Shown in pieces: positions 1,197 to 62,196 of a stretch of DNA of 64,000 nt. The stretch is from a virus, in the IMG/VR virus record IMGVR_UViG_3300026118_000001, positions 25,727-89,726 of that record. The stretch is one strand, 5' to 3'. Both the position numbers and the translations under genes were made by a program. The notes beneath the pieces were generated by a model that saw only the letters and a program-made list of their open reading frames with translations, did no database searches and had not been told where the DNA came from. Every line of letters starts with the position of its first letter. Within the stretch, counting starts at the first letter, position 1.

Positions 1197-1216
1197 TAAA
1201 GTGAAGTTGAAATTAA

Positions 1217-1256
1217 TACACTCTCTAGTTTATGGTGCTAGAGAGTGTATTTTTAT
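1217..1256. terminator. Bidirectional intrinsic terminator
   Basis: A perfect 12-bp inverted repeat (TACACTCTCTAG, 1217-1228, with its complement at 1238-1249) encloses a 9-nt loop and is followed by TTTTT on the + strand. It lies between two convergent genes and can end both transcripts. Confidence 0.85.
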
Positions 1257-1807
1257 TTGTTTAAATATTCTATTGCTTTTAATAATATGTTTTTATTTTC
1301 TCTTAATAATCCTATTCCAGTATTACAAGCCTGACATAATAATCCTCTTACTTTAAGAGTCTTATGACAATGATCTATTGATAATTCTTTTTCTTGGCTT
1401 TCTGGATTCTCACATATAGCACAACATCCTTTTTGAATGGAAAGAAATTTATTATATTGTTCTTCTGTTATTTTAAATTTTCTTAATTTATATTTAAGTC
1501 CTAAACATTTTCTACAGCGAGCTTTATATTTTTCTTTTTCTTTTGAAAACTCTTCTTTTGATTTAATCAAATTACAGTTTGTACATAGTTTAGTACCATT
1601 TTTATATTCAATTGATTTTAATTGATATGTTCCTTTTTTACCTTTATATGGAGTTCCATATTTTTTAATAGCTAAACAATTTTTACAAAATCCATCTAAC
1701 CCACATTTGTATAAAATATTTTTGCTGAATTCTGAAATTTCTTTATTTTCATTACATCTTATACAAAGTTTTTTGTTGTCTATTATTGATAATGATTTTC
1801 TTCCCAT
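1253..1807 (-). CDS. Recombination endonuclease VII-like HNH nuclease with N-terminal zinc ribbons
   Basis: The 184-residue protein ends in a typical endonuclease VII (His-Me finger) domain: CCAIC and CQAC zinc pairs about 30 residues apart bracket the SIDHCH active-site segment, followed by RGLLC and NTGIGLL. The N-terminal half has two CxxC...C-x2-C ribbon-like clusters (CIRCNENKEISEFS and CTNCNLIKSKEEFS) that look like an internal duplication. Family members cleave branched or otherwise structured DNA, or act as homing nucleases. The start codon overlaps the stop of the upstream 873-residue virion gene in a TAATG arrangement, so it is the last gene of the structural transcript. Packaging-related cleavage or a free-standing homing role are both possible. 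Confidence 0.85.
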   Translation of the reverse strand: MGRKSLSIIDNKKLCIRCNENKEISEFSKNILYKCGLDGFCKNCLAIKKYGTPYKGKKGTYQLKSIEYKNGTKLCTNCNLIKSKEEFSKEKEKYKARCRKCLGLKYKLRKFKITEEQYNKFLSIQKGCCAICENPESQEKELSIDHCHKTLKVRGLLCQACNTGIGLLRENKNILLKAIEYLNK

Positions 1808-4428
1808 TAATGTAATTCCTCCAATTGATTATCTGACAATACTCTTAACATATCATATATAGGTTTAACTAATGGAGTTACATCAGATAGTTCTTTTAAT
1901 ATTCTATTTTGACCTTTATGAGATCCTTTTTTAATTGTATAATCTCCTGTATATAATACTTTAGGAACTATTGTTGTAGCTTGAATAATATCTCCAATTG
2001 TTTTACTTAATGGAATTGCATTTTTAGCTAAATTATTAATTTGTGACGGAGAATAGAAGAATGTTAAATCTCCAGATGCTCTGTCTAATAAAGTTAATCC
2101 TACTTTAACTAATGGTAGTCTTCTAAACTTTTTATCTTCATCATCATCTCCACCATGTAAAGCTGCATAAAATAATATCATAGCAGAAGCTGTAATAATT
2201 TCAGCTACCATTCTACGCATATTATATATTTCAGTTTCAGTCATTTTACCTGATTCTAATAACTTCTTATAACCAAATAATGGTAATAGTAAATTTTCAA
2301 ATGCTTGTTGTGGATTTCTCCAATTTTTAATTACAAGTCTTCCGAATGTTAAATAAATACCTTCAACATCTGTTTGAAGTCTATTGTCCCATTGTGGTGT
2401 ACCTATTCTATTTTCAATTGCTGATGGAATCCATTTTCTAAATTGTGATACAAGTCTATAAACTACATTTTGTTGTGCAGCAGCAGCTTCTTTTTGTGTA
2501 TATCTACCATGAATTTTTTGATTAAGTCTTTGAATTTTATCAATTAACTGCTCTATTTCTTGTTCTGAGGCATTATTATATTTGTCTGTTAGCTCACCTT
2601 GTGAGGTCAAATATCCATCTTTAATCATAACTGCCATTCCAGTTCTTGATTGTAAGAATTTCTCACCAGCTTTTTGTAGAGAATACATATATTCTAATGC
2701 TTTCTCTGTTGAAAGTTTATTAGGTTTTCCAGTTTTAGATATTTTTTCAGCTATTTCATAATCATCTAATTCTTGTAGAAAGTTCATTCTAATAAGTAAT
2801 TTATTCATTACAGAATCTTTATCAAAGTTCTGTTTAAAGAATATATTACTAGCATCTTTTAAATTATTAACATTAAAATATCTTCCTCCAATACCTTCTA
2901 TTATATTACTTATATCACCAAATAACCAGTTAACTGTAGCACCAATTGGACTAAAACCTATTCTTAATAAAGAGTTATATCTTAACATTGTGTCAGCTAA
3001 ACCAACACCATCAATATATTTTTCAACTTTATTCCCATCTGCATCAAAAAAATCTTCAATTATATAATTTCCTTGGTCAGATTTCATTTTACCTTTAACC
3101 TGCATTTCAATTATATCATCAACAATTTTATAAATATTAGAATCTTCACCATTAATTGGTGTAGAAGGTTTAGAAGGATTGATGAATTTTCTTTTTTGAA
3201 TTTCTCCATCAACCATTTTAAACTTTAATTGCTCTTGTAGCACTCTAACTTGTGGAAGAATTTCAGACATTTGTCTATAATTTTCAGCAAATTTAGCAAA
3301 TTGAAATAATGATGTACCTAAATCATTTGATTTTTCAGATAGAGGAATTGGTTTATGATATTCCAATGGAACTATATCTAATAGATTTTCTTCTTCTATT
3401 GATCCTTTTAAAGTTCTAGTTTTAATTGGATTTAATCCTTTTAATTTAGATTTTAAATCAGATTTTCTAATATTAGGAACAAAATATTTACCTAATTTAA
3501 TAGGCATTCCATCTTCTGCTTCTTCAATAGTTTTCTGATAAAAATCATAAAATTCTTTTAACTCTTTTGTTTCTTGAATTTTAGTCCAATTTTTATTTTC
3601 TTCTCCATTTTGGAGATATTCTTTAGCTAATATTAATGTACCTTTATGTTCTTGAGTTAATATTGTATAAATATCATCAATAGTAGCCCCATTTTTTTTA
3701 GCATAATCATCTAATTTTGAAACTTGTTCTTGAATATTCTTTCCTAATTCCTTGGTTTTAGTTTCAACTTTATTTTGTGTCTTTCTAATAATAGAACCAA
3801 TTGTAGAACCAATATAATTTGGTAGATCACTTAATGATCCAGTCCATCTTTTAAATGTTCTAATATCTTCATCCTGTCTATTAATATCTTCTAATGTTGG
3901 AGCTATTTTAGTAGTAGAATGTTCTTTAACTTGTTCTACCATATTCTCATTATAAAAAGGAATAAGTCTATCAAATAAATCACTAGATTTGTCTCTTAAT
4001 CCTTTAAATTCTATCCAAGTACCAATAACTTCTAAAGCATGTTGAATATTCTTAGCTGTAGGTTCAAATTCTTTATTTTCTAAATCTTTAATAAAACTAT
4101 CTATTTTATCTAATGTATAATTACCTAATTCTAAATATACTTCTTTAGATTTATCTAATAGTTTAGCTTCTTGTGATTTAGAAGTTAAATATTCTAATTC
4201 TTCTAACTTAGCTGAATATTTAGGGTCTTTCTCTTTAAGTTGTTTTAATTCTCCTTCAAGTCTTTTAATTCTCCTGTCTACATATATTTTCTGTGTAGAA
4301 TATATTGGAGATTTGATTTCTTCTTGAGTTTGTTTATACCAAGCAGCATTAGCTAATACTTCACTTCCAAGTTCTTCTACAAGTTTTTTATAAGAAGGAT
4401 CTGATTTATTTGGGCACTGTAAAGCCAT
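1807..4428 (-). CDS. Large virion protein, crAss-like, next to virion RNA polymerase
   Basis: This 873-residue protein has a charged, helical N-terminal half (long Lys/Glu-rich coiled-coil-like stretches) and a more hydrophobic C-terminal third with one strong apolar segment (ITASAMILFYAAL) followed by an acidic GGDDDED patch. The segment FRKWIPSAIENRIGTPQWD and the C-terminal KGSHKGQNR motif resemble blocks in large crAss-like virion proteins encoded beside the RNA polymerase. It starts one base after the polymerase stop, so the two are translated together. I infer that it is packaged and possibly ejected with the polymerase; no enzymatic motif is visible. Confidence 0.75.
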   Translation of the reverse strand: MALQCPNKSDPSYKKLVEELGSEVLANAAWYKQTQEEIKSPIYSTQKIYVDRRIKRLEGELKQLKEKDPKYSAKLEELEYLTSKSQEAKLLDKSKEVYLELGNYTLDKIDSFIKDLENKEFEPTAKNIQHALEVIGTWIEFKGLRDKSSDLFDRLIPFYNENMVEQVKEHSTTKIAPTLEDINRQDEDIRTFKRWTGSLSDLPNYIGSTIGSIIRKTQNKVETKTKELGKNIQEQVSKLDDYAKKNGATIDDIYTILTQEHKGTLILAKEYLQNGEENKNWTKIQETKELKEFYDFYQKTIEEAEDGMPIKLGKYFVPNIRKSDLKSKLKGLNPIKTRTLKGSIEEENLLDIVPLEYHKPIPLSEKSNDLGTSLFQFAKFAENYRQMSEILPQVRVLQEQLKFKMVDGEIQKRKFINPSKPSTPINGEDSNIYKIVDDIIEMQVKGKMKSDQGNYIIEDFFDADGNKVEKYIDGVGLADTMLRYNSLLRIGFSPIGATVNWLFGDISNIIEGIGGRYFNVNNLKDASNIFFKQNFDKDSVMNKLLIRMNFLQELDDYEIAEKISKTGKPNKLSTEKALEYMYSLQKAGEKFLQSRTGMAVMIKDGYLTSQGELTDKYNNASEQEIEQLIDKIQRLNQKIHGRYTQKEAAAAQQNVVYRLVSQFRKWIPSAIENRIGTPQWDNRLQTDVEGIYLTFGRLVIKNWRNPQQAFENLLLPLFGYKKLLESGKMTETEIYNMRRMVAEIITASAMILFYAALHGGDDDEDKKFRRLPLVKVGLTLLDRASGDLTFFYSPSQINNLAKNAIPLSKTIGDIIQATTIVPKVLYTGDYTIKKGSHKGQNRILKELSDVTPLVKPIYDMLRVLSDNQLEELH

Positions 4429-4429
4429 A

Positions 4430-7400
4430 TTATTTACACTTTTTTTCTATTAATTTTCCTAAACTTTCATCATCATGAACTTCATTAAGTTCTTTTAAAA
4501 GTTCTTCTTTTAATTGTGGTTGAAATTCAAATAAAAATTCAATATCTGATTTTAGTTCATTGTATTGTTCTTTTGATAATTCAAATTTCTCTCCAATATT
4601 AGTTATTTTCTCTTGTATTGGCAACTTATTTTCTTCTTTATTTATTTCATTGGATAAATAGATATTTCTAGCTTCTTCATTCCAAATTCCATTAGTTTGA
4701 TTATAAGCATTAAACATTTTAATCATTTTAGATGATGTTAAAATAGCTACATTCTTATCATCTAATTTTTTAATAATATTCCATGCTTTTAATGCTCTTT
4801 CTCTAAATTGTTTAAATGACTCAGCTTTTGGATTTATTTTTTCTTCTTCATTAATTGGATTAGACCATAACTTTTCATCATATTCATTCTCTTTAACTTC
4901 ACCTTCCCAATTACCCATATTCATAGTTTTTAGATTTTCATCTGTATAATATGGAATATTTTGTTCTTTTTTAATAATTTCTGCTGTTTGAATCACTCTT
5001 TCAATTGGAGAAGTAATTAATGATGTAATTCCTTGTATTTTTAATTCTTTTCCTAAATTAGAAGCTTGTTCTTTTCCTTCTTTAGTGAGATTTGTATCAG
5101 ATTGTCCATTAATCACATCTTTAGATGAGGGAACATCTTCTCCATGTTCAAATACTATTAAATTACCAACTTTTACTGGTTCTACTTTTGGTGATATGTT
5201 TTCTATAGTTATTTTTAATGGAGTTGTAATAGGAATATATTTAACATTAAATCCTTTTGTAGCTTTATTTACATCATAGTCTTTACCATACATTCCATTA
5301 CCCAAAGCAGAAAGTTGTAGATTTTTAAATATAGTTGGTACAATTTTATTGTTATTTCTAATAAATAGTTCATTAAATTTTGGTAGTATTTCTGCCCCAT
5401 TTTTTTTATTAAATTCTTCAAATGAGTCTTTAACTAATTGATTATAATATTCAAATGGAATAATTCCTAAATAAGTTATAGGAGAATTATTAAGTCCTGA
5501 TTGTAATATTCCAACATGAATTAATTCATTTCCTAATGATAAATTAGAATTCTTTAGTTCTCTAAATGCTTCTGTTAATTGATTAGATGTAAATGTATCT
5601 AATTTTTTAGTAAATATTTTAACATTGTCATAATTTAAAGCTGCTTTATCAATTAATGGAAATAATTCTTTAATTAGAATATTATTTCTTAATTGCTTTT
5701 CATCTTCATTTAAATTTTCTTCTTTTTTATTCTTTAATTCTAATAGTTTCTTAGCAACTGAATTTTCTCCTTCAAATAATCTCTTTCTAATAGCATTAAT
5801 ATTCTTATATCCATAGTTTTGAATTACAAAATTAATAAAATCATTTTCAATTAGATTAATCATTTTTAATTTCTCTTTTCTTGATGATTTAAATGGATTT
5901 TCTAATTCATTGGCAAGACCTAATATATTATTGATTATTTCTTCTTTTTGTGTGTCATAGAACTGTTTATATGAAGATATAGCAAATTCATCTTGTTGAA
6001 ATGATTTAATAAATGTCTTATTAATAATTTCATTAACACCATTAATAAAATTGGTTTTTTGTACTTTATTTATTTCTTCTAATTTAAGTCTTGAACTATT
6101 AATATTTTGACCTAATCCAGCAGTATCAGAATTAGTAACTCTAACAGCATCATTAAATAAACTAGCTTGTTCTTTATATTTTAAGAAATCATTAAATACT
6201 TGTAATTGAAATAATTCAAATTCTTTAGTAGATTGATTCTCAATTAATTTAAAATCTTTTAATTCTTTTAAAGAAAGTATTTTATTTTCAATATCCTTTT
6301 CAGAAACTAAATTAGAATATTTTTTCTTTATTTGTTTAGTTATTTCTGTATTTCTTTGATTCTTTCCTGTAGATTTTAAAAATATAGATTTATTCTTATT
6401 AATTTCTTCTATATAATCTAAAATAATAGGTTGAGTCATGAAATTAGCAATGTGTTCAAACGGAACTCCTAATTTATTCAAATATAAATAAATAGGAAGT
6501 GTATCCATAGTCATGTTTAAATAACTTACCATTGGAATTTCATCTTTAGCAGCATCCACAATAATATTAATTAACTGATTGTTAATTTCAGATATATTAT
6601 GATTATTTTCTGCGTCTTTTAAAGCTCCTAAATTAAAAACATCTCTAATTTCATTGTGAATTAAATTAATATTCACTTTAATTTCTTCTCCAGCAGCATT
6701 AATATAAGATTTATTAGCTGTTAGTCCAGATAATTGAGAAAGTGGCCCATAAGCATTAGCAATAGCAGATAAACCTACTTCATCTTTAGCAAGCCATAAT
6801 TTATATCTAGCATTTATTTTATTTTGTAATTTTAATAAGGCTGTATAATTAATCTTTTTATCTTTTGAATTTTGAGCTTCAAAATATTCTTCTTTAGTTA
6901 ATATTTTTTTAGGTTCTCTTCCTTTAGAAATTAATTCATTATTAGCTTCTGTTTTATCATTTAAATAATCAATATATTTAATATCATCAACTATTGGTGA
7001 TATAATACTTGTTGAATTGGGTGTTATTAGTGATATAAAGTTATGAGGATTAGAAATAAAATCTTTGATTACTTGTATTGTTTTATTATCAATATTATCT
7101 TCAATATAATTACCATTTTCATCTAAATTTGGTCTATAAGTATATAATTTGTCATTGTCAAAGTCAGATCCAGCTTTAGCAACTATATCAGGATGAACTA
7201 TCATAGTAGTAGCTGCATCTTCTGGTAGAAACTCTTTAATAGTTAAATATTCATTGGAATTCATTCCTTGTCCTGGAATACGACATCCAACTAATTCTAA
7301 TACTTTATTAGGTATATCTCCATTTTTAATAGCTTCATTAACTGCTTTTAAACTACCAAATTTCTTTAATAATGGATAATAACTTTCAGATAGAGGAATC

Positions 7401-33750: not shown

Positions 33751-34440
33751 TTATTCTGTTTTATTTAGTACTATTTGTGAATAAGTATTAATTCTATTAG
33801 TTTCAATATTTTCAAGAGCAATCATAATAGCTGTATTTACTATTTCCTGATGTGTGTGTTCAGATAATTCACAATCTACATTTGGTAAATTACTACTATC
33901 TATTCTAACTGGTCTTTTTATATATCTTATTTTATAAGAATTGATTGTTGATGTTGGACTATGTAGTAATTCTACACCTTCTTTTGTCATTAATCTTAAT
34001 ACTTTTTCATCAGTGGGTTTAGCAAATGGATTACTGATTATTTTACTATAATCATTATGTTGTATTCCAAGAGTGAAGACATCTTCTGTTTTACTTACTC
34101 CACAATCAGTAAATGTAAGATTTGTTAATTCTTGTATTGTTATCCAATGATCTGCTGGTAATGTTATAAAGTTTGCATTAGAGTTAATATTATCACTTGT
34201 ATTTGCTAAAGGTGTAATATTTTGTGTAACTATTAATGCTTTTAAATCTTCTGTTCTTTTTTGAGTTTCTTCAAAAGATTCTTTCTTTATATTATTATAT
34301 CCATATCTCTGCTTAACAAAAGCATCTTGAGCTTGATTTAATACTAAATCTATTTCCTCTGGTTCAAGATTTGGATAATTTTTGCTATCAAATTTATCTA
34401 ATCCTTGTTTAAAGGATATGACCATTTCTGAAGCTGTCAT
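33751..34440 (-). CDS. Putative portal-proximal ring/adaptor protein
   Basis: The 229-residue protein has a helical N-terminal half (TASEMVISFKQGLDKFDS, PEEIDLVLNQAQDAFVKQRY) and a beta C-terminal half ending SEHTHQEIVNTAIMIALENI. This N-terminal pattern is widely conserved in crAss-like phages near the capsid genes. Start and upstream stop overlap at 34440. Confidence 0.65.
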   Translation of the reverse strand: MTASEMVISFKQGLDKFDSKNYPNLEPEEIDLVLNQAQDAFVKQRYGYNNIKKESFEETQKRTEDLKALIVTQNITPLANTSDNINSNANFITLPADHWITIQELTNLTFTDCGVSKTEDVFTLGIQHNDYSKIISNPFAKPTDEKVLRLMTKEGVELLHSPTSTINSYKIRYIKRPVRIDSSNLPNVDCELSEHTHQEIVNTAIMIALENIETNRINTYSQIVLNKTE

Positions 34441-35234
34441 TATTTTTTAGTTTTAGTTGCTGCTGTAGCTGCTAGTTTAACTGATTGATTTCTTAAATCT
34501 TTAAAATAAGCAATTACTGATTCTACAGAACTTCCAATAGTTTCATTTTGAAATGTGTAATAATTACCTTTTTTAATTAAAACACCACCTTCAAGCATTT
34601 CTTCAATTTCAATTCTTAATTTAATATCAGGATTCTCATAAAGTTCTAAGAATTTCTTTGGATTAGCATCTACTTCTTTAAATAAAGAGGTATTTACAAA
34701 AGCTTCACTCACTGTATCTAATCCACGTTTACCATATAGCTTCAAATAACCTTTTTTCTCTTCTAAAGAAAGTGTTCTTAGAGCATCTAAGGCATTCATC
34801 TTATAATTGATAATAACTTCTTCAACTTTAGCTTTAGCCTCTTTATCATCAATAAAAAACTCTGCAAATGGTTTATTTTTTATATCAGTTTCATTAATTG
34901 CAATATTACTACGTTGCATTAATACACCAAGTTTTATTTCATCTAATAGAGTTTCAACACTAAAAATAAATGGTTTATCTGTTGGTAGTCTTAAATTCAA
35001 CAATGGTCCCCAATATTCTGCATTATTTCTTGATAAAGTTCCTTTTGGAAGACCTAATTCTTCACAATAAAGAGTTTCTTGTTCTTTTGTTAAACCAGTT
35101 TTATATAAACCAGTTTTCATTTCCAATTGAGCACCCTCAATTGCTATCCCTGTTCCTGAATAATTAGATATTCCAGAAAATTTACTTCTTGGAATTGCTT
35201 TAATTACTACTTTCTTTGGTGTTATTTCTATCAT
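34440..35234 (-). CDS. Capsid-region structural protein
   Basis: The 264-residue protein has a short basic beta N terminus (KKVVIKAIPRSKFSGI), a middle section with NAEYWGPLLNLRLPTD, and a helical C-terminal half with EEKKGYLKLYGKRGLDT, the latter typical of the gene following the major capsid gene in crAss-like genomes. It heads a new transcript from promoter 35277-35310. Confidence 0.65.
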   Translation of the reverse strand: MIEITPKKVVIKAIPRSKFSGISNYSGTGIAIEGAQLEMKTGLYKTGLTKEQETLYCEELGLPKGTLSRNNAEYWGPLLNLRLPTDKPFIFSVETLLDEIKLGVLMQRSNIAINETDIKNKPFAEFFIDDKEAKAKVEEVIINYKMNALDALRTLSLEEKKGYLKLYGKRGLDTVSEAFVNTSLFKEVDANPKKFLELYENPDIKLRIEIEEMLEGGVLIKKGNYYTFQNETIGSSVESVIAYFKDLRNQSVKLAATAATKTKK

Positions 35235-35276
35235 TTTAATTTTTCCTTTATTAATTTTCTGTAATGTTCTCTATTT

Positions 35277-35310
35277 TAAATATAGTTAAAATAAATGATA
35301 TTATCAACTT
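35277..35310 (-). promoter_or_regulatory. Phage promoter, AAGTTG-N20-TATATTTA class
   Basis: AAGTTG (35310-35305), 20 bases, TATATTTA (35284-35277) on the - strand, 43 bases before the 264-residue gene. It lies directly after the terminator that follows the major capsid gene. Confidence 0.85.
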
Positions 35311-35332
35311 ATTATTTAACTATTTATAATTT

Positions 35333-35375
35333 AATAAGAGATGATAAAAGTTTTTAGTTTCTACCATCTCTTATT
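35333..35375 (-). terminator. Hairpin terminator after major capsid gene
   Basis: A perfect 11-bp stem, AATAAGAGATG (35333-35343) with CATCTCTTATT (35365-35375), lies 11 bases after the capsid gene. The tail on the - strand is AT-rich rather than a pure T run, so read-through is likely. Confidence 0.65.
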
Positions 35376-35385
35376 TAATCTTATA

Positions 35386-36840
35386 TTAACTAATATTATC
35401 AATATCCAAAATTAATTGGGCTGCATCAGTTGGATTTCTCAACATGATTCCCTGTTCAGACATTGCAATGAAATCATATCCATCTTTACCTGTTGCAGAA
35501 CTACCATTCCTTTTAGGACCAGTTGGGCCATATAAACCTTCAACATAAGTAGTAACCATTTCCCTACCTTTTGTATAAACCTTTTGAATATTAGGTTCTC
35601 CACCTGAATATGATTTAAAGTTTAAGAAAGTTGCTTTATATGATTCTGCTGGTCTTCCTGTTTGAGGATGTAAAGCTCTATTTCTCCAAGTGTTATTATA
35701 TGGAGCATATTGTTTCAATGTAATTTTATCTCCATTTAAACCAACATATGTTTTAAATTGATTTCCAAATTTCAAATCTTGATCTCCACCTTGAATAAAA
35801 TGACTATCAACAAGTGTATAATTGGAAGCAGAACGTTTCATTGCTTGGTCAAATAGATCCATGAAATTTCTACCACATAATGCAATATATTCACGTTCAC
35901 CATCTTCAGTACCATTGAATGCTAAATCATTCATGAAATTCCTAATAGTATTTTCTGTTAGTGAAGTGTAATAACGTTTGTTAGATGGAGCAATTTGTTG
36001 TTCTAAACCTGCTGACAAATAAACTGGATGACCACTAGCACCTTTCATATCAGTGGTACCATCTGCTTTAATATTTGATTTACCATACATTAAAAGTAAT
36101 TCAATTTCATCCATCCATTGACACCAGAATTCCCATTCTGCATATTTAACCCATGTAGAAGCTAATTCAGTTCCATCAGGATTCATCAATTTCATTTCTA
36201 ACACTTTATCATGTACAGCACCTGTAATAGAATATTTCTTTCTAACAGTTGACATATAATTTTGCATTAACACTGGTGTAGTAAAATGAGTTTCACCTGA
36301 AGTTTCAGAAGCATCATTTTCAACAGCATTAAAATCTTTAGATAATTCTTTACCTACAGCAAGTAATGATGCTGGAATATAATCTGCTTGGTTATTTGAT
36401 ACTAGTTGTAATGTTAAGATCATATCAGTACCATCATCATATGGACTTCCCATTACTCTCATTGAATAACGTCCATCATCTGGAATTAAAATATCACCTT
36501 CTGCAAACCAACGTTCTCCAACACCTACTTTAAATGTGGTTGAAGCAATACCAGGAGTTGCTGTTACAGCATCAAATACACCCCTTGTAATAGGAATAGC
36601 TTTTCTACTATCACCCATAATAGACCAACGATAAATAATATCATTCATCTCTTTAGCTTTACCCATACCACTGGTTAAATAGGATAGAGCATTTTTATAG
36701 TTATTTTGTTTATTGTAAACTCGTGTAACAATCAAACTAGCCATTTCTGGTTTAGTTAAAAAGAATGTACGCAAGTGGTTGGCATCAGTTAAACCTGCGT
36801 GCCAGTTCTGTTTGCTAATCTGTAAATCGCTTATTTGCAT
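35386..36840 (-). CDS. Major capsid protein (HK97-fold, crAss-like)
   Basis: The 484-residue protein matches the crAss-like major capsid protein in length, position after portal and scaffold genes, and general sequence: N-terminal ISKQNWHAGLTDANHLRTFF, middle EWEFWCQWMDEIELLLMYG, YYTSLTENTIRNFMNDL, and a C-terminal region with GPTGPKRNGSSATGKDGYDF. No protease or cleavage site is obvious. A 26-base gap separates it from the scaffold-like gene, so both share promoter 38037-38070. Confidence 0.85.
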   Translation of the reverse strand: MQISDLQISKQNWHAGLTDANHLRTFFLTKPEMASLIVTRVYNKQNNYKNALSYLTSGMGKAKEMNDIIYRWSIMGDSRKAIPITRGVFDAVTATPGIASTTFKVGVGERWFAEGDILIPDDGRYSMRVMGSPYDDGTDMILTLQLVSNNQADYIPASLLAVGKELSKDFNAVENDASETSGETHFTTPVLMQNYMSTVRKKYSITGAVHDKVLEMKLMNPDGTELASTWVKYAEWEFWCQWMDEIELLLMYGKSNIKADGTTDMKGASGHPVYLSAGLEQQIAPSNKRYYTSLTENTIRNFMNDLAFNGTEDGEREYIALCGRNFMDLFDQAMKRSASNYTLVDSHFIQGGDQDLKFGNQFKTYVGLNGDKITLKQYAPYNNTWRNRALHPQTGRPAESYKATFLNFKSYSGGEPNIQKVYTKGREMVTTYVEGLYGPTGPKRNGSSATGKDGYDFIAMSEQGIMLRNPTDAAQLILDIDNIS

Positions 36841-36866
36841 TTTTATTGTTGTTTATTGTTTAATCT

Positions 36867-38006
36867 TTATATTTTTAGTTTAGCAAATCCAGCAAATGGA
36901 TCTGAATCTATATCATCTTTTGTAATTTTGCTTTGAGGAGATTTTTGTTTTTGTCTTGTATCTGTAAAATTACCAAGTTTACCTCTTAGTTCACTTACTT
37001 TTTTTGTTTCAAGTGATTTTTCAAGACTACTAACATCCCATTTATTTTTAAGAAGGTATGCAAAAATATATCTGGAGTCTTCATTTTCTTTCATATCTTT
37101 TTGATATGCTGTCTCTTGAGATTTTTTATCAACAACTTTAGTCATATAATCCCAAAGATCATTTTTTGTTTTGGGAGTCATTGGAAAACTACCAATTTTT
37201 TCCTTATCAAAAAGTCCTTTTTTAAAACTATCCCATTCAGCTTGTCTTTTTTCTTCCTCTTGTTTAGCATATTGCTTTTGAGATTCAAGAAAAATATTCT
37301 TTTGTTCTTTTTCTACTTTTTGTAGTTTCTTTAAATGTGTAGCAGCTTTAGTTGCTAGTTTCTCTGTATCTTTATATAGATTTATTTGATCTTCGATTTC
37401 AGCTTCATCATAATCTTCAAGTTTTAAAGCCTCTCTAATTACATATTCCTGATTTTCCTCATTATCTATATTGAATTCTTCAAAACTACCATCTTCATAA
37501 TAATACTTATGAAAATCTGCTGGTTTACCACCTTGTTCAATGAACTCTAAGAACTTTTTACCATCTTCTGGTATAGTTTCTTTATATTTAGTAATACCTT
37601 TTTTAATTGTATTATCTGTAACTCTTAATAGATCCTTTTCAGATTCTATTTTTTCACCTTCTTCTAAATCAATAACACCTTCTTCTTCTAAGAATTTAGC
37701 AAATCCTAAGAATGGATTTGAATCTTCTGTTTCTTTCTGTTCAATAGAAGTTTCTTTAATATCATCCTCAACAACCTTTTTTGTTGTTTTTCCTTTATCA
37801 GGTTTAGATGCAGCTTCAAGAGCAGCCAACTCATCTTCAGATAAGTCATCATCTTCTACTTCTTTTAGAATTGGTTCTTTCTCTTTAGGTTCCTCTTTCT
37901 TAGAAACTTTAAGTTTTGGTGCTGGGTTATTTAAATTTTGATTTAAAATATCAAATCCACCAAATGGATCAATAACTTCTTCTGGTACTTCTTTAATTTT
38001 TGTCAT
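36867..38006 (-). CDS. Scaffold-like acidic coiled-coil protein
   Basis: The 379-residue protein is highly charged, with an acidic disordered N-terminal third (ILKEVEDDDLSEDELAALEA), a long central coiled coil (LATKAATHLKKLQKVEKEQK) and a C-terminal DSDPFAGFAKLKI block that echoes VIDPFGGFDIL near the N terminus and NPFLGFAKFLEE at about 97. These three related DPFxGF(A/D) motifs may be repeated capsid-docking peptides. Composition, length and place between portal and capsid genes fit an internal scaffold. Confidence 0.65.
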   Translation of the reverse strand: MTKIKEVPEEVIDPFGGFDILNQNLNNPAPKLKVSKKEEPKEKEPILKEVEDDDLSEDELAALEAASKPDKGKTTKKVVEDDIKETSIEQKETEDSNPFLGFAKFLEEEGVIDLEEGEKIESEKDLLRVTDNTIKKGITKYKETIPEDGKKFLEFIEQGGKPADFHKYYYEDGSFEEFNIDNEENQEYVIREALKLEDYDEAEIEDQINLYKDTEKLATKAATHLKKLQKVEKEQKNIFLESQKQYAKQEEEKRQAEWDSFKKGLFDKEKIGSFPMTPKTKNDLWDYMTKVVDKKSQETAYQKDMKENEDSRYIFAYLLKNKWDVSSLEKSLETKKVSELRGKLGNFTDTRQKQKSPQSKITKDDIDSDPFAGFAKLKI

Positions 38007-38036
38007 TTTATAATTTCCTTTATTATATCCTTTAAT

Positions 38037-38070
38037 TGAATATACATTTTTTTAACTAATTATGCAACTT
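38037..38070 (-). promoter_or_regulatory. Phage promoter, AAGTTG-N20-TATATTCA
   Basis: AAGTTG (38070-38065), 20 bases, TATATTCA (38044-38037) on the - strand, 31 bases upstream of the scaffold-like gene. It would give extra transcription of scaffold and capsid genes. Confidence 0.82.
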
Positions 38071-38090
38071 ATTTGTTAATTATTTTTATA

Positions 38091-38480
38091 TTATTTTAAA
38101 TTTTCTAGTTTATATATTGTTGAATAAACTAATTTGGTTATTTCATCAATTTGATTTTGCATATAAGTTTCTTTAAATTTTGAATAAATATCTCCATCAT
38201 CTATTGATTTAACAAATGCTTTTAATACCGTTAATTCATTAGTTGAAGAATTTGAACTTGGTATTATAATAGATTGTATTCCGTATTTTCCTTGATAACT
38301 TTCAATTAATCCATCAATTAAATCTAATAATTCATCATAGAATGAACCTAGTGCCATATGTATAGCATATGATTTAGCTGCTAAATGACATAAATGTGTT
38401 TGATCTCTTAATTGAAATAGTTTACCAAAGAAATTTGGAATTGATATTGTATTACTTGTTGTAAACTTTAACTCTTTCAT
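38091..38480 (-). CDS. Conserved capsid-region protein
   Basis: The 129-residue helical protein contains RDQTHLCHLAAKSYAIHMAL and FYDELLDLIDGLIESYQGKY, a pattern found in a small crAss-like protein encoded next to the portal; it looks ferritin- or Dps-like in its helical layout. Its start overlaps the portal stop at 38480. Function unknown. Confidence 0.65.
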   Translation of the reverse strand: MKELKFTTSNTISIPNFFGKLFQLRDQTHLCHLAAKSYAIHMALGSFYDELLDLIDGLIESYQGKYGIQSIIIPSSNSSTNELTVLKAFVKSIDDGDIYSKFKETYMQNQIDEITKLVYSTIYKLENLK

Positions 38481-41062
38481 TATTTCTTTTTAATTGTTGG
38501 TTTATTTCTAGCAGCTATTTTTTTAACTGCTATTTCTTTTTCTTTTAATTTAAGTTGTTTGTCTTGCATTTTTTCTTGAGATTTATTTTGAACTTCTGTT
38601 TGTTTTATTTTTAGTTTCTCAACCATTTCTCTAGATTTAAGTTTATCTTTTTCAAGTGATACTTTATCATTGTGTTGTTTCTCTTTATTTTTTTCAACTA
38701 AAGTTTTATGAAATACATCACTTTCATGTTTTTGTCTTTCTAGAGCTACTTTATTTAATTCAAGAACATCTGGTATTTGATTTTGATTAACATCTGTTTC
38801 TTTAGCAAAACCTAATGCGGATATTGTGGCTGTTTCTATTTTAGTATTATTAGTTGTATCGGCTATATAAATATCTTTATCTCTATCTTTTTGTTTTTCA
38901 TCAGAATTGTAGTTTTGTAAATCTTGTTCATGTTGTTGTTGATACATTAATACTTGTTTCTCATGATCTTGCTGTTGTTTAGAAGTATCTTGTTGTCTTT
39001 GATAGAATTCCGCTTCTGCTCTTTTTAATATATTAACTATATCTTTAGGACTATCATTTAATACTGTGTCTATAATTTGTGATAAATCAACTTTTTGTTG
39101 TTCCATTGCTACTTGAGCTAATTGATCTAGTTTTGATTTTATTAATTTATCCTTATCTAAGTTAGATACAAATACAGCAAATTCAGAATTTTCAAATTCA
39201 AATTCTTCTAGGTGTAACATTTCTAATGTTAAGTCATCATTAACATATTGTGTAACCATTCCATTTCTATAACATATTTTTGCTATTTCAATTAATGATT
39301 CATATATTCTTCTTCTAACTTCCTGATGACTATCAAATAGATATTGTGTAATTGTTTCAGATTGATTAATAGTTTGTTGTACATTTCCAACAGCTTCATC
39401 CTGATGTATTTTACCCATTCTTTGTTGTGATACTCCAGATACAGTATAAATCTGTTGTTCTAGAAATGATAAATAATTCATGTATTGTTGAACAGAGTTT
39501 GTTAAACTCATATCCAATGTAGTAAATTGGTTAAAATGATTACCTGCTAATTTACCTAATGCTTGACCTTTTTTACCTTCTTCAAATGAATTTATGAATG
39601 CTATTTTATTTTCTTTTAAATAATACATCCAATCATCTAAACTAATTCCTTCACTTTTAGGAATTTGAGCTAAATCCATTAGCATGATTTTACCTAAATC
39701 ACTAGCAAATACTAATTGTAATTTCCAAGAAATAATATCATATAAATATTGATAACTCTTTAATCTGTCAATTAAACTCACTGATTTAGAATTAGTTGCC
39801 TCATATAAAAATCCTGTATATCCTAATTTAGTGTAATAGGGATTATCCATTCTCACTCTTTGATTTGGTTTACTTCTAATACCAATATATATATCTGCTC
39901 CAATTCTTACACCTTCCCAAGCATCATTTTTCCAAAACCAATCTACATTGGCATCTGGATATACTTCTTTAAATTCTTTAAATAGTTTTTTAAATGATTC
40001 ATCTACTAGTTTTTTAACTACTTCTCCTGTTTCAGTGTCTGTATATTCTAATGTTCCAACTAGTTTCATACCCATCCATTCTACTCTATCAACTCTCAAT
40101 GAGAAATTACTTGAGTTATTATTAGTTGAACTACTAGAAGGTGTTACTCCTCCTAGTACATTTGTTCCTTGTACTACTTCAAATACAGGTGTAAATCCTC
40201 CAGTAGAGTTAAATGTTCCAAATATACCATTAGAATATGATTGAAGTTTATCTAGATCATCTTTGGATAATTCATCACCATATTCATCTATAATTGATGG
40301 AATTGTTAAAAGTCTTTCTTCAATTACAGCTATAGCATCATCAATGAACATATCACTATCATCTAGTATAACTGTCATATTTAGTGGATTACATCTTCTT
40401 AATGCTGGTTCTCCATTTAATATACCTGTCCAATAGATCTCTTCTCCTGCTATTAAAGCATCTTTAAATCCTTGATTTATTAATAACTTTGTTTGAAGTT
40501 TCTTTTTTAATATTTTTAATAACTTATTAGATTTAGATTCTAATAAATCTGATGGACTGGCTCTTTCTATTTTAAGAATTTCTTCTGGTGTTGGAGGAGG
40601 ATTATTAGGATCAATTGTTGATGGGTCTATTTCTCCTAATAATGATCTTTGTAAACTTTCAGTTATTCTTTCTTTTAATTTGGTAGTTTTTCTAGATATA
40701 TCTTGTGATGATTCTGAATAAACTAAAGCATTATCTGGTTTAACAGATTCTTCTCCTAATAGTTCATGTATAATTGGAGATATTTTATCATGATGAATAA
40801 ATGAATCTGCAAATGTTCCTGATTCATTCATTGGATCACATATTTTTCTAATATCTGTTATATCAACTCTACCATTAGCTAAATCATAATTAGTTATTTT
40901 CTTAGCTCTATCTGTTCTTAGATTAGTACCATTAGTATAACGAAAGTTAATATAATAATTAACTGATGCCTTCTTCCATTCTTCTGTTCTTTCTCTTTCT
41001 GTTACTCTTTGATTTGGTAGAGCAGAAGAACCACCAAGATTTTGTTCATTTGTAGAAGCCAT
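38480..41062 (-). CDS. Portal protein
   Basis: The 860-residue protein lies directly after terminase and before scaffold and capsid genes, as in other crAss-like phages. Visible portal-like features are the central wing/stem region with LSFLEQQIYTVSGVSQQRMG followed by DEAVGNVQQTINQSETITQY, and a long Gln/Lys-rich C-terminal coiled coil (from about residue 690) that would form the barrel or crown inside the head. It forms the dodecameric DNA gate and binds terminase. Confidence 0.85.
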   Translation of the reverse strand: MASTNEQNLGGSSALPNQRVTERERTEEWKKASVNYYINFRYTNGTNLRTDRAKKITNYDLANGRVDITDIRKICDPMNESGTFADSFIHHDKISPIIHELLGEESVKPDNALVYSESSQDISRKTTKLKERITESLQRSLLGEIDPSTIDPNNPPPTPEEILKIERASPSDLLESKSNKLLKILKKKLQTKLLINQGFKDALIAGEEIYWTGILNGEPALRRCNPLNMTVILDDSDMFIDDAIAVIEERLLTIPSIIDEYGDELSKDDLDKLQSYSNGIFGTFNSTGGFTPVFEVVQGTNVLGGVTPSSSSTNNNSSNFSLRVDRVEWMGMKLVGTLEYTDTETGEVVKKLVDESFKKLFKEFKEVYPDANVDWFWKNDAWEGVRIGADIYIGIRSKPNQRVRMDNPYYTKLGYTGFLYEATNSKSVSLIDRLKSYQYLYDIISWKLQLVFASDLGKIMLMDLAQIPKSEGISLDDWMYYLKENKIAFINSFEEGKKGQALGKLAGNHFNQFTTLDMSLTNSVQQYMNYLSFLEQQIYTVSGVSQQRMGKIHQDEAVGNVQQTINQSETITQYLFDSHQEVRRRIYESLIEIAKICYRNGMVTQYVNDDLTLEMLHLEEFEFENSEFAVFVSNLDKDKLIKSKLDQLAQVAMEQQKVDLSQIIDTVLNDSPKDIVNILKRAEAEFYQRQQDTSKQQQDHEKQVLMYQQQHEQDLQNYNSDEKQKDRDKDIYIADTTNNTKIETATISALGFAKETDVNQNQIPDVLELNKVALERQKHESDVFHKTLVEKNKEKQHNDKVSLEKDKLKSREMVEKLKIKQTEVQNKSQEKMQDKQLKLKEKEIAVKKIAARNKPTIKKK

Positions 41063-41063
41063 T

Positions 41064-43145
41064 TTATGTATTATATGTTATGTTTAAATTCTTAAATTTA
41101 CTATTTGTAATTTGTCTTTTATCTAAATACTTTTTTAAATAAGGATCTTGTCCCCAAGTTGAAGCATTTTGTGTCATATTATCTACATGAATTTTATGTA
41201 GTTCTTTTGTTTGAAGAATACATAACATAAATGCAATAACTCTATCATAGTTACCTTCAACATCATAAGCTATTAATTCTTTTAATAGTCCTATAGACTT
41301 AATTGTATGAAAGTTAAATATCTTCTTTCCATCAATATCATCTCTTTCTGTATATAACCAATCTTTCAAATATAACTCACACATATCCTTAATTCCACTA
41401 CTTCCTCCATTTCCTCTATTCATATGACATCCATATCCCCTTTGTACTTTAGAGTCCTTAATAATGTCTTTAATCATATGATCTGGTTGTTCCCACATTA
41501 AGTATAATGAGTTTTTATTTGAAAAATAATTCTTCATTCCTTTTAATTGATTTTCATATAATACTTTAGCATTATAATAAATACAAAGTCTTCTACATTG
41601 TTCATAAAAATCATCTGCAAATTTAGGTCTACCTGTAAATTCAGCTACAATTATATCATGAGTTTTACCTTGTTGTATAAATCTCTTATAAACATAAAAA
41701 GAACCTAATGATCCACTTCCTGATTTATCCATATCATAAGGGTCACATCCAGCTATATATAAACTATAAGGAATATCTTTAGATTTAAATTCTGGTCTTT
41801 CCCAAATAGCAATGCAACCAGTATTATCTTCATCTGGTTTTAATGGGAATGATGTTATATAAGTTAAATCTGAATTTGGTTGAAATTCTAACTCTTCACC
41901 CTTCCAAACTAATTCTCCTTTTTCAACTTGATCTCTTAATGATGGTGTTGTTTCTAATTCTCCTAAATGTTCTAATAATTCTGGAGATGCAAATATAGCT
42001 CCTTTGTTTCTTAAAAATGCTTCTTGCCAAGTTAATGGAAATTGTGTAACTGCTCCATGTTGTGCTCTTGGATCAAGTCCACCTTTTGCTTTTTCTCTTT
42101 GATAAAGAATATCATCAATAGCTGCTTCTTCGTTTGAATTACCATCACTATCAATCATTGGTTGTCTATACCATTTAGATAGTTTATTCATACAAAGTCC
42201 TTCTCTGCCTCTAGCTGCTGTACTAAAATAAGCAATTCTTTTCATTGGATTTTCTGGATCTGGAAAATCTAACATATTATATTTTTCAGGAGTGACAAAC
42301 ATTTCATAAAAATATTTACTTCCTGTATCCATGTCTCCAGAAGATCCAAATATAATTGCTACACCTGAATACATTGAACCTGTTTTAATAAGAGGTTCTG
42401 TAAATGAATACATATCTGTAATATTAGGAAATACACCACCTTCATCTAATATTAATTTTCCAGCAGATTTACCTACTGCTGCTGTAGGATTATCTTTAAA
42501 ACTAATAGCCCTTACAGAACTATTATAACCTTTCCATACTTTAACTCCTCCAACATCTGATTGATACCTAGCTACTATATTATCTTTTAAATCAGGATTT
42601 CTTTGTTTTCTAAATTCTGTATTTATATTAATAAAGTTTAAATTATCAATAACCATTTGCATAGTTGTTAAAGCATAACTACTTAGAAAAGCTCCAATAA
42701 TAGAATTAGATTTTGGAAAAAATGTAAATTCCCAGGCACAAATTGCTGCTGCTTTATATGACCATCCTTGCCTTCTTCCTTTTACTGCTAATAGACATTT
42801 TTGATATTTCTCACAATATTCAATCATGTGGAAATAATCATAATCTAAATCCATAAACATTGGAAACATTTCTGTTTTTTTACCAATAGCATAATTATAT
42901 CCAGATATTCTACAGAAATTTAAATAGAAAAAATGATGTCCTGTAATTCTAATTCCTTTAGAATTGATGAAACCATATAAACATTTTTCTCTAACATCTT
43001 TCCAAAATTTTATATAATCATCAGTACCTTCTATAGAAAGAGTGTAGAATCCATATTTAATAAAATGGTCAGCAAGATAACTAAATTCTTTAGAATTTGT
43101 AAATAATTCAACTTGCGGAACATATGGATTACCAATACTACTCAT
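41064..43145 (-). CDS. terL: Terminase large subunit
   Basis: The 693-residue protein is the DNA-packaging motor and headful nuclease. The ATPase Walker A-like segment VKGRRQGWSYK is at 121-131 and Walker B LILDEG at 231-236, followed by the coupling region IIFGSSGD. The RNase H-like nuclease domain begins with the first metal-binding Asp in YIAGCDPYDMD (about 463-473), and VLYENQLKG supplies a later conserved block. Length and motifs match crAss-like TerL. It starts at the last base of the preceding stop. Confidence 0.92.
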   Translation of the reverse strand: MSSIGNPYVPQVELFTNSKEFSYLADHFIKYGFYTLSIEGTDDYIKFWKDVREKCLYGFINSKGIRITGHHFFYLNFCRISGYNYAIGKKTEMFPMFMDLDYDYFHMIEYCEKYQKCLLAVKGRRQGWSYKAAAICAWEFTFFPKSNSIIGAFLSSYALTTMQMVIDNLNFININTEFRKQRNPDLKDNIVARYQSDVGGVKVWKGYNSSVRAISFKDNPTAAVGKSAGKLILDEGGVFPNITDMYSFTEPLIKTGSMYSGVAIIFGSSGDMDTGSKYFYEMFVTPEKYNMLDFPDPENPMKRIAYFSTAARGREGLCMNKLSKWYRQPMIDSDGNSNEEAAIDDILYQREKAKGGLDPRAQHGAVTQFPLTWQEAFLRNKGAIFASPELLEHLGELETTPSLRDQVEKGELVWKGEELEFQPNSDLTYITSFPLKPDEDNTGCIAIWERPEFKSKDIPYSLYIAGCDPYDMDKSGSGSLGSFYVYKRFIQQGKTHDIIVAEFTGRPKFADDFYEQCRRLCIYYNAKVLYENQLKGMKNYFSNKNSLYLMWEQPDHMIKDIIKDSKVQRGYGCHMNRGNGGSSGIKDMCELYLKDWLYTERDDIDGKKIFNFHTIKSIGLLKELIAYDVEGNYDRVIAFMLCILQTKELHKIHVDNMTQNASTWGQDPYLKKYLDKRQITNSKFKNLNITYNT

Positions 43146-44971: not shown

Positions 44972-45190
44972 TTAATTTTTCTGTTCCTTTAAATTTAAAG
45001 TTTTAACTTTTAATTCTTTCATTTCCACATCTTTAACTATTTTATAACTAAACTCTGGGTGAATCTCTGATAGTCTATTTAGATTAAAATTTAATTCTTC
45101 TTCTAATAGATCTAAATCTTCTAGGTCATTTAATACTATAATTGATTCTCTTAAACTAATTGACATTAAATTTAAAGTGTAATTCACCAT
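44972..45190 (-). CDS. Hypothetical small protein
   Basis: The 72-residue acidic-basic protein (LEDLDLLEEELNFNLNRLSE, EIHPEFSYKIVKDVEMKELK) abuts the IHF-like gene and overlaps the upstream gene by 35 bases. No family recognised. Confidence 0.5.
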   Translation of the reverse strand: MVNYTLNLMSISLRESIIVLNDLEDLDLLEEELNFNLNRLSEIHPEFSYKIVKDVEMKELKVKTLNLKEQKN

Positions 45191-45482
45191 CTTCTACCAC
45201 TTTTAATATTTGATTATTAATAGTGAGTTCATTGTGAGAGTTAAGTATTAGTATATTTTTATCTTTTAACTTCTTAATATAGTTATTGGTGTTAGCTATT
45301 GACTTATCTCCAATTAAATCTCTAATTTGCTTTCTAGTTTCTTTTGTTATTGATTTTATATCATTATCTAACATTTTAACTATTATATCTAATTCAAAAT
45401 TAGACATCTTTAAAAAACAATTAACTACTTTCAATATACCTAAGTGATAATTTTCCTTTTTTGTATTTATATTATATTCCAT
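45156..45482 (-). CDS. Winged-helix-like protein
   Basis: The 108-residue protein has a helix-turn-helix-like centre: FELDIIVKMLDND, then TKETRKQIRDLIGDKSIAN, NTNNYIKKLKDKNILI and a short beta wing (NSHNELTINNQIL). This is the layout of small wHTH proteins in crAss-like phages. DNA binding is inferred; targets unknown. Confidence 0.6.
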   Translation of the reverse strand: MEYNINTKKENYHLGILKVVNCFLKMSNFELDIIVKMLDNDIKSITKETRKQIRDLIGDKSIANTNNYIKKLKDKNILILNSHNELTINNQILKVVEDGELHFKFNVN

Positions 45483-45871: not shown

Positions 45872-46053
45872 TCTTTTTTATTTTTAATTCTTTCTACTAT
45901 TGAGTTAGCAACTCTCCATTCTCTTTCATTCATCATATCATTCCAAAATTCAGGTCTTTCACTTGGATAATTCCATTTATTCTCAAAGTTTTCTCTTGAA
46001 TTAGATTCTCCTTCTAAGAATTCATTATTATTTTGTGCTGTGTCCATGTTCAA
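45856..46053 (-). CDS. Hypothetical small protein
   Basis: The 65-residue protein (ENFENKWNYPSERPEFWNDM, EREWRVANSIVERIKNKKEC) has an aromatic centre and a basic end. Two start codons lie two codons apart at 46053 and 46047. It overlaps the gene upstream by 26 bases. Confidence 0.5.
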   Translation of the reverse strand: MNMDTAQNNNEFLEGESNSRENFENKWNYPSERPEFWNDMMNEREWRVANSIVERIKNKKECKKD

Positions 46054-46189
46054 TTATACTTCCTGTTACTTTATAACTCTTTCTCATAATGCTTAATTCA
46101 TTACTTAGTAATATCTGTGACTCATGAATTTTATTTGAATGATTTGCATATTTAGATATGAATCTTCCTTTTTTATCTCTTAATTTCAT
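46028..46189 (-). CDS. 53-residue basic protein, possibly leaderless
   Basis: The frame starts MKLRDKKGRFISKYANHSNK and runs to GHSTK. The RDKKGRF block resembles RDSKGRY in the gene at 46568-46768, so the two may share a small DNA/RNA-binding motif. The ATG lies only 4 bases after the -7 element of promoter 46194-46227, so its transcript would have almost no leader. Confidence 0.5.
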   Translation of the reverse strand: MKLRDKKGRFISKYANHSNKIHESQILLSNELSIMRKSYKVTGSIIEHGHSTK

Positions 46190-46193
46190 GATA

Positions 46194-46227
46194 CAAATAT
46201 CTGAAGATTAATTTATTTCTACAACTT
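46194..46227 (-). promoter_or_regulatory. Phage promoter, AAGTTG-N20-GATATTTG
   Basis: AAGTTG (46227-46222), 20 bases, GATATTTG (46201-46194) on the - strand. It is the first promoter of the long structural gene array. The last base G matches the Bacteroidota TAnnTTTG consensus. Confidence 0.78.
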
Positions 46228-46249
46228 ATTATTAATATATTATTAAAAG

Positions 46250-46515
46250 AAAGAAAATAAAAAGTTTAAGCTACAAGAAATATGTAACTCTTTAAGTTTT
46301 AAAAATGGTTATAATCGCTATTATGTTAGTTTACTGGTTATATTAGTTTCCATGTATTTTTAAATATTTAGGAAATCTAATAACATTCAACAGATGATCT
46401 TCGCCTTACACTCTGGTGTCATCTCTAAACTTATTTTAATAACTTCTTTGGAAATCCTACAACTTTCTAATTTCTTAGTTTTAAACTTGGGCCAAAGAAG
46501 GGTTAATCAAATTAT
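46250..46515 (-). ncRNA. Candidate structured small RNA of about 265 nt
   Basis: This stretch of - strand has its own AAGTTG-N20-TATCTTTA promoter at 46522-46555, no credible frame, and a T-rich end (46245-46264 on the + strand is a run of A with few G). Seen helices: CTTCTTTGG (46443-46451) with CCAAAGAAG (46492-46500), perfect; TTAG-TTTCC (46343-46351) with GGAAA-T-CTAA (46371-46380), one bulge; GATGA/TCATC (46393-46397/46419-46423) enclosing ACAC-TCTG-GTGT; ATAAT-CGCT-ATTAT (46311-46324). I know no family with this outline. Confidence 0.6.
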
Positions 46516-46521
46516 AATATG

Positions 46522-46555
46522 TAAAGATACAAAATATATTTCACATTTACAACTT
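46522..46555 (-). promoter_or_regulatory. Phage promoter, AAGTTG-N20-TATCTTTA, no gene downstream
   Basis: AAGTTG (46555-46550), 20 bases, TATCTTTA (46529-46522) on the - strand. The next gene start in that direction is 330 bases away, beyond a T-rich stop and a second promoter, which points to a non-coding transcript. Confidence 0.8.
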
Positions 46556-46567
46556 ATATTTGATTTA

Positions 46568-46768
46568 TTATATTCTTCCTTCTGTATCTACTTGAATATT
46601 AAAGTGTTTCCTCTTATCCAAACATACTATTATTTCTTCAAATTCTTTAAGAGTTATATTAATAAGTGACTTAGGTTTACAATATCTACCTTTAGAGTCT
46701 CTAAATTTATTAGATTCTCTAATGTGGTGCATTAAACCTTTTCCTAATTTTAGTTCATTATTTTCCAT
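46568..46768 (-). CDS. 66-residue basic protein
   Basis: The protein reads MENNELKLGKGLMHHIRESN, then FRDSKGRYCKPKSLINITLK and ends DTEGRI. The KGRY block resembles KGRF in the gene at 46028-46189. A variant promoter (AAGTTT) lies just upstream at 46789-46822. Function unknown; a small regulator is plausible because it stands first at the strand switch. Confidence 0.55.
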   Translation of the reverse strand: MENNELKLGKGLMHHIRESNKFRDSKGRYCKPKSLINITLKEFEEIIVCLDKRKHFNIQVDTEGRI

Positions 46769-46788: not shown

Positions 46789-46822
46789 TAAATATAATAT
46801 AAATTATTATAATATGAAACTT
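46789..46822 (-). promoter_or_regulatory. Phage promoter variant, AAGTTT-N20-TATATTTA
   Basis: AAGTTT (46822-46817), 20 bases, TATATTTA (46796-46789) on the - strand, 21 bases before the 66-residue gene. The spacer length and second element agree with the other copies; one base of the first differs. Confidence 0.7.
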
Positions 46823-46884
46823 ATTTTATAAAATTTTAAAAATTTTATAGATTTCTAAAACTTATTTTTTATAATTTTTTAAAA

Positions 46885-46995
46885 ATCTTAGTGTAAGTAG
46901 GGACTTGAACCACCTCTAATCCAACCCCCCATTAGTTTTAGGAAGGAAAATGGTTTTCTTTCTATCTGAATAGTGATTGACTATTTCAAAGATAT
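46885..46995 (+). other. Structured stretch at the strand switch, with tRNA-like T-loop remnant
   Basis: A gene-free stretch with several helices: CTAAT/ATTAG (46916-46920/46931-46935), AGGAAGGAAA with TTTCTTTCT across 46940-46964 (two G.U pairs on the + strand, mismatches on the other), and AATAGT-GATTG-ACTATT (46970-46986). ATCTT near 46886 can pair with AAGAT near 46990 to close it. On the - strand, GGTTCAAGTCC (46901-46911) looks like a tRNA T-loop, but no acceptor partner exists. It may be the leader of the + strand genes. Confidence 0.4.
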
Positions 46996-47016
46996 TTATT
47001 CTTAATCTTATAAATT

Positions 47017-62162: not shown

Positions 62163-62196
62163 AAGTTGTAAATGTTATAAATAAATGGTATATTAA
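62163..62196 (+). promoter_or_regulatory. Phage promoter copy inside intron, AAGTTG-N20-TATATTAA
   Basis: AAGTTG (62163-62168), exactly 20 bases, TATATTAA (62189-62196), 34 bases before the LAGLIDADG start. It is the only copy found on the + strand and would express the endonuclease separately from the unspliced message. Confidence 0.75.

Follow-up and report, generated by a model that had tools for sequence, protein, structure and literature searches.

Few known phages are as abundant as the crAss-like phages, and in one of them a promoter at the border between the late and early genes points into a stretch lacking a gene on the sense strand. We asked whether this locus encodes a structured RNA and, if so, whether the RNA would act on its own or as the 5' part of the mRNA of the genes lying behind it. 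The DNA comes from an 89.7-kb IMG/VR virus record, of which the window, i.e., the whole stretch of 64,000 nucleotides analyzed here, is a part. The terminase and portal of the window match head-and-packaging families, and the closest annotated relatives of the terminase are Crassvirales (ca. 35% identity).

Setting of the locus

According to the ORF table, the late genes occupy the minus strand up to ca. 46.8 kb and the early genes the plus strand from 47.0 kb, and the RNA site lies at this strand switch, as a preliminary description made from the sequence had placed it. That description had also called the region free of reading frames, and indeed no sense-strand ORF of at least 50 aa was present between the promoter and the ATG at 46189. 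The sole listed ORF there (91 aa, 46394-46669, plus strand) is antisense to the RNA and also to the 66-aa gene, and gave no PHROG match. A protein-coding reading of the RNA site was rejected because no sense ORF was consistent across the members of the family. In the window three small genes separate the RNA from a 108-aa gene. In most relatives the latter gene is found behind the RNA, adjoining it or separated from it by a few small genes, and the gene immediately downstream of the RNA varies.

Relatives were sought with four queries, namely, the terminase, the 66-aa and the early 85-aa proteins, and the 108-aa gene located near the RNA. They gave more than 100 loci (L numbers below), some of which are overlapping parts of one and the same contig. 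One, L006, is 99.6% identical to the window around the RNA. The small genes 3' of the RNA showed mosaic differences between near-identical phages: compared with 45.8 to 46.2 kb of the window, L007 carries a 151-aa gene (3123-3578, minus strand) that has no window counterpart. It also has an extra 74-aa ORF (4604-4828, minus strand), absent in the window and L006, between the 66-aa gene and the equivalent of the window promoter at 46822. The DNA of L004 (1-10562) is 96 to 98% identical to that of the window (33882-43145) from the second half of the large terminase gene (TerL) onward; the nucleotide match ends inside TerL near window position 42023, the whole TerL protein is ca. 55% identical, and a recombination breakpoint is apparent within the terminase gene. 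Between the two strands, at 46880-47016, the window holds a second noncoding element with a hairpin-like string, GGAAACCATTTTCCT, common to the distant relative L008; its minus strand reads GGTTCAAGTCCCTAC, resembling a tRNA T arm, and no tRNA was found there.

Table 1. Features of the RNA locus (window coordinates)
Feature	Positions	Strand	Sequence and remarks	Basis
RNA promoter, Bacteroidetes sigma-A type	46522-46555	-	AAGTTG (46555-46550), 20-nt spacer, TATCTTTA (46529-46522)	Motif scan and shuffles
Structured noncoding RNA, type R2	46256-46517	-	ca. 262 nt	R2 covariance model built without the window
Helix PI, 5' arm	46492-46500	-	CTTCTTTGG; pairs with 46451-46443	
Helix PI, 3' arm	46443-46451	-	CCAAAGAAG; pairs with 46500-46492	
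Helix PIb	46467-46478	-	CTAA-GAAA-TTAG; GNRA-loop hairpin within PI	
Helix PII	46392-46424	-	AGATGA/TCATCT; inner hairpin ACAC-CAGA-GTGT	Registered by hand; placed by R2 covariance model
Helix PIII (hairpin)	46343-46380	-	TTAG..TTCC/GGAA..CTAA; conserved loop TAAAT...AATACA	Registered by hand; R2 covariance model
3' hairpin and T-rich tract	46245-46288	-	GTTACA/TGTAGC; putative intrinsic terminator	
Second promoter	46194-46227	-	AAGTTG-N20-GATATTTG; ends 4 nt before the ATG at 46189	Motif scan
53-aa gene	46028-46189	-	MKLRDKKGRF...; directly downstream of the RNA; homolog at the same place in L007	
108-aa gene	45156-45482	-	Weakly winged-helix-like; identical protein in L007	

The RNA of the window and type R2

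The minimum folding energy of the minus strand was only mildly unusual (z of -1.71, 10 of 200 shuffles being as good; z of -0.90 for the plus strand), and the structure was therefore unconvincing from the single sequence. The predicted structure becomes convincing once relatives are compared. The type to which the RNA was assigned, R2, is represented by four further loci, L061, L097, L098, and L101, in which the site is likewise followed by the 108-aa gene. The covariance model made from these four, excluding the window, matched the window RNA over its full length (minus strand, positions 46517-46256, 56.6 bits, E of 6.8e-12, model positions 1-277 of 277), and this was its sole match in the 89.7-kb record. 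The length agrees with the structured RNA of about 265 nt in the preliminary description. A profile HMM made from three R2 relatives, also without the window, found the latter at an E of 4.9e-6 in 3.16 Mb, and a 25-base R2 pattern occurred in only five contigs of a 2.9-million-contig viral collection, every one of them an R2 carrier. The genomic context was likewise that of the type, with a promoter at the 5' end, a second promoter behind, and a position upstream of the 108-aa gene.

In the automatic alignment, 96.9% of the cells of PI and PIb were paired, compared with 26 to 46% when the partners were slid, and both sides had changed in 6 of the 13 pairs. These comprised four of the nine pairs of PI (five sequences) and two of the four of PIb, which reads CAAG-GAAA-CTTG in the relatives. 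PII, in a hand-made register, takes the forms AUGUGA/UCACAU, GAAUGG/CCAUUC, and UUGUGA/UCACAA in the relatives, and its core, CCAGAGTGTAA.GGCGAA, is near-identical in L101. When PII and PIII are included, pairing is found in 107 of 108 cells and a double change relative to the window in 16 of 27 pairs, counts that lean toward structure because the register was chosen by hand. At the 3' end the R2 relatives have a 9-bp hairpin (GAGUUUNAG/CUUAAACUC) followed by UUUAUUG; in the window its 5' arm is altered, and the GTTACA/TGTAGC hairpin with the T-rich tract remains. The features first noticed in the single sequence can be assigned to this model: the perfect 9-bp stem is formed by the two arms of PI, the bulged 9-bp stem is most likely the PIII hairpin, and the T-rich end belongs to the 3' hairpin and tract.

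A second RNA type, R1, at the same site

Dozens of environmental crAss-like contigs carry at the same site an element of a second type, R1. An iterated profile found it in 43 loci at an E of <1e-15, a few kilobases upstream of TerL and usually near the 108-aa gene. The alignment, A6 (plain MAFFT, 15 diverse members), comprises the helices P1, P2, and P3a to P3e. Of its pair cells, 98.0% were paired, against 36 to 44% with the partners slid by one to three columns; 22 of the 37 pairs were changed on both sides, and in 500 shuffles neither the observed pairing percentage, nor the number of doubly changed pairs, nor the covariation score was reached even once. Since the structure was derived from the same sequences, the comparison favors the real over the slid pairing, and the double changes are not accounted for thereby. 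P1, for instance, occurs as ACCAGG/CCUGGU, AUCCCU/AGGGAU, ACCCAC/GUGGGU, and AGCAAG/CUUGCU. In P2, G-U pairs are found in 12 of the 15 sequences at one pair and in 6 of the 15 at another; on the opposite strand they would be A-C mismatches, which indicates an RNA and fixes its sense strand. The P3 domain has the form of a three-way junction, and R1 is multibranched. We considered a pseudoknot at the 3' end (CCCC/GGGG) but did not include it, as its letters show hardly any variation. The R1 RNAs of L036, L042, L035, and L060 (e.g., 7645-8004 of L060) have an extra insert of ca. 45 nt in the P2 region, a block common to close relatives.

The compensating changes in both types, together with the independent R2 match, bear out the structure by the covariation check that the preliminary description had named. 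The comparison thereby establishes the existence, conservation, and structure of the predicted RNAs.

The R1 model (built on A6) gave no match in the window or in its 90-kb record. It detected L007 with 51.9 bits when the whole record was searched and missed it in the pooled searches with default filters, so that the E values are rough and the pooled negatives weak. In L007, the DNA that follows the promoter, up to the next gene, resembles segments of L014 and L046.

The absence of R1 from the window and the modest folding energy would suit a far simpler explanation, namely, that there is no RNA gene at all and that a promoter copy is followed by an AT-rich spacer with helices formed by chance. 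We give this hardly any credence, given the full-length match of the independent R2 model and the compensating changes seen against the slid-partner controls.

Promoters and the predicted transcription unit

The consensus of the Bacteroidetes primary promoter is TTTG at about -33 and TAnnTTTG at -7 (as quoted in PMC7366714). The core of the RNA promoter has the form TTG-N20-TATCTTTA (46552-46522, minus strand), and the full promoter copy reported earlier is thus present there. The strict motif, AAGTTG-N19/20/21-TANNTTTR, occurred five times in the window, always on the minus strand, against 0.3 expected from Markov shuffles, so the RNA promoter is not a lone copy. Instead of the "orphan" that it had been called, it belongs to a promoter set and appears to start a unit of its own that stands at the head of the late strand and has a second promoter behind it. 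Further copies or near-copies of AAGTTG-N20-TATATTTA are located at 18638, 24792, 35310, 38070, and 46822 (minus strand) and at 62163 (plus strand), mostly in gaps before genes, and trace late transcription units of the phage.

Among 32 members, 26 had a promoter scoring at least 8/9 where the RNA begins, the spacer being mostly 20 nt long, and 23 had a second one, also scoring at least 8/9, within 160 nt of the RNA end, mostly 45 to 97 nt behind it; the means for shuffled sequences were ca. 6.5 to 7.7. The 53-aa gene downstream of the RNA is thus predicted to have its own start site. In the window and likewise in L007 the -7 element ends four bases ahead of its start codon; with so short a distance, translation of this gene may start on a transcript that has no leader or almost none.

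No clear strong intrinsic terminator is present in the R1 members, and therefore read-through into the operon is possible. In R2, the flanking promoters and the terminator-like end make the element look like a free-standing transcription unit. The promoter motif, the covariation, and the independent R2 match all support the earlier description of a promoter that would drive a structured RNA.

In the mechanism that we propose, the promoter at 46552-46522 would be read by the RNA polymerase of the host carrying its primary sigma factor, and the transcript would fold into PI/PIb, PII, and PIII, with its end near 46256 at the 3' hairpin and T-rich tract. The second promoter would then give the late operon a start of its own. 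With a promoter and an end of its own and a separate promoter for the operon, the RNA most likely acts in trans; it would do so as a folded RNA or an RNA-protein particle rather than as a leader. From these transcription signals, which are present in the sequence, we infer a separate RNA molecule acting in trans on a target, and we think it likely that the element is an independent, trans-acting noncoding RNA gene of a crAss-like phage.

Exchange of RNA types behind one promoter

The R1 and R2 models do not cross-hit. When 14 records were searched whole, 12 turned out to contain exactly one R1, the record of the window and that of L061 exactly one R2, and none contained both. The clearest pair is that of the window and L007, whose flanks are ca. 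97% identical and whose 108-aa proteins are 100% identical, while what lies between the promoter and the following gene has been replaced, being of type R1 in L007 and R2 in the window. A homology of these two RNAs, suspected from short shared strings, was not clearly supported, since their similarity was near the shuffled level (3 of 200 shuffles as high); that of the window RNA to L101 and of the L007 RNA to L014 was far above every shuffle. L021 is a second case of exchange: its 108-aa-type protein is 91.5% identical to that of L023 and 31.1% to that of L029, and its RNA is much closer to that of L029 than to that of L023 (z of 21.2 versus 8.3). In L012 and L018 the downstream gene is present and no recognizable RNA was found at the site in searches that included the weak pooled ones, L012 having just a promoter ahead of the 108-aa-type gene; the RNA is therefore not universal. 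A tree of the 108-aa gene was not used as evidence because it was poorly supported near the window.

The RNA is thus found in single copy at a fixed locus, and the site is a cassette for at least two RNA types, in which the unrelated-looking R1 and R2, and divergent alleles, are swapped behind the same promoter and before the same downstream genes. The exchange could be a neutral replacement or a recombination at the repeated promoters.

These data bear on the main rival to a trans-acting RNA, a cis-acting leader of the late operon, in which the RNA would form the 5' part of the operon mRNA and control it as a riboswitch, an attenuator, or a protein-binding leader. Such a role would fit the invariable strand of the RNA, its constant place immediately before the late genes and usually near the 108-aa gene, and the lack of a strong terminator in R1. 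However, a second promoter lies between the RNA and the genes in the window and in most relatives, and R2 ends with a hairpin and a T-rich tract. Moreover, the RNA type changes between the window and L007 with the neighboring genes largely unchanged, and the gene immediately downstream is not constant among the relatives. We consider a leader unlikely.

Searches beyond the family

Rfam 15 gave nothing above the gathering threshold for the RNA (only tRNAs elsewhere), and permissive scans with six members gave chance-level matches or none. The Rfam check proposed in the preliminary description, which had not recognized the family, thus left it without a match. No tRNA or tmRNA was recognized in the RNA by ARAGORN or Rfam. 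A partial Pistol ribozyme match at 46322-46265, obtained in a permissive scan, was rejected (12.8 bits versus a gathering score of 34.5, E of 8.4); it was not seen in L007, L014, L046, L032, or L101. Nucleotide searches of annotated phages found no match to the window region and only promoter-like or chance matches to R1 members. No convincing R1 or R2 match was present in the stretches around TerL of the gut crAss phages cr10_1, cr1_1, and crAss001, an Azobacteroides phage, the Flavobacterium phage FpV4, and the Cellulophaga phage phi14:2. Among bacterial genomes, no relative was obtained with the terminase and no match with the R1 pattern. An array of 23 tRNAs (1196-5320) lies upstream of TerL in crAss001 (L092), a cultured gut phage, in the general area that holds the RNA in the environmental phages. 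The open-access papers searched contained no report of a structured RNA of crAss-like phages, and an earlier description in subscription journals or preprints is possible. R1 and R2 thus represent, as judged from their strong covariation, two new RNA types lacking an Rfam family.

Two readings modeled on known RNAs can be weighed here. A 6S RNA-like molecule that inhibits or redirects the host RNA polymerase would agree with the host-type promoter and a broadly similar size. It is nevertheless quite improbable, as no Rfam match was found and 6S RNA forms a single long rod that opens into a central bubble, unlike the separate helices PI, PII, and PIII of R2 and the multibranched R1. A packaging or virion RNA like the pRNA of phi29 is brought to mind by the fixed position a few kilobases upstream of the large terminase gene and by the three-way junction of P3. 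We deem it very improbable: no Rfam pRNA match was obtained, the R1 and R2 models show no cross-match, and the RNA is missing at the site in at least two relatives and gave no convincing match around TerL in gut crAss phages.

Possible role and comparison with known systems

Returning to an RNA acting in trans, an exchange of RNA types between near-identical phages fits a partner that varies between hosts. It suggests that the target differs from host to host, and for this reason we prefer, tentatively, a role in antagonizing the host, either as counter-defense or in the takeover of a host machine. It is possible, in a similarly tentative vein, that this clade of crAss-like phages maintains a dedicated locus for a folded trans-acting RNA at which structurally unrelated classes and divergent alleles are exchanged while the promoter and neighbors stay fixed, an RNA counterpart of the swappable genes for counter-defense proteins in other phages. 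Such an exchange at one locus with little change in the surroundings is unusual for a structured RNA. With the R1 and R2 models and the exact place in the genome at hand, the question of the RNA can be directly tested in any cultured relative.

Among known systems, the closest in kind are GOLLD and ROOL, large ornate RNAs of phages and prophages that are conserved, highly structured, and of unresolved function (PMC12286853). They share with R1 and R2 their phage origin, conservation, and high degree of structure, with no relatedness by any test made. GOLLD and ROOL measure ca. 600 to 800 nt or more, are often neighbors of tRNA islands, and are covered by Rfam models, whereas R1 and R2 have 260 to 360 nt, lie at the late/early switch, and have no Rfam match; the window RNA, with its 262 nt, falls outside both families on size and on Rfam. 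The phi29 pRNA (Rfam Phage_pRNA) is likewise a phage RNA, and the RNA studied here is encoded a few kilobases from the packaging genes and has, in R1, a three-way junction; it differs in giving no model match, in the phage order and terminase, and in occurring as two exchangeable types. With 6S RNA it has in common that it is noncoding, broadly similar in size, and could act at a transcription switch, and the one likeness to the Pistol ribozyme is the weak partial match below the cutoff. For the role that we favor, the nearest analogy is phage PhiTE, in which an RNA mimic is reported to evade the ToxIN defense (PMC3475682). It serves only as an analogy for how R1 and R2 could work, with a phage directing an RNA at a host system.
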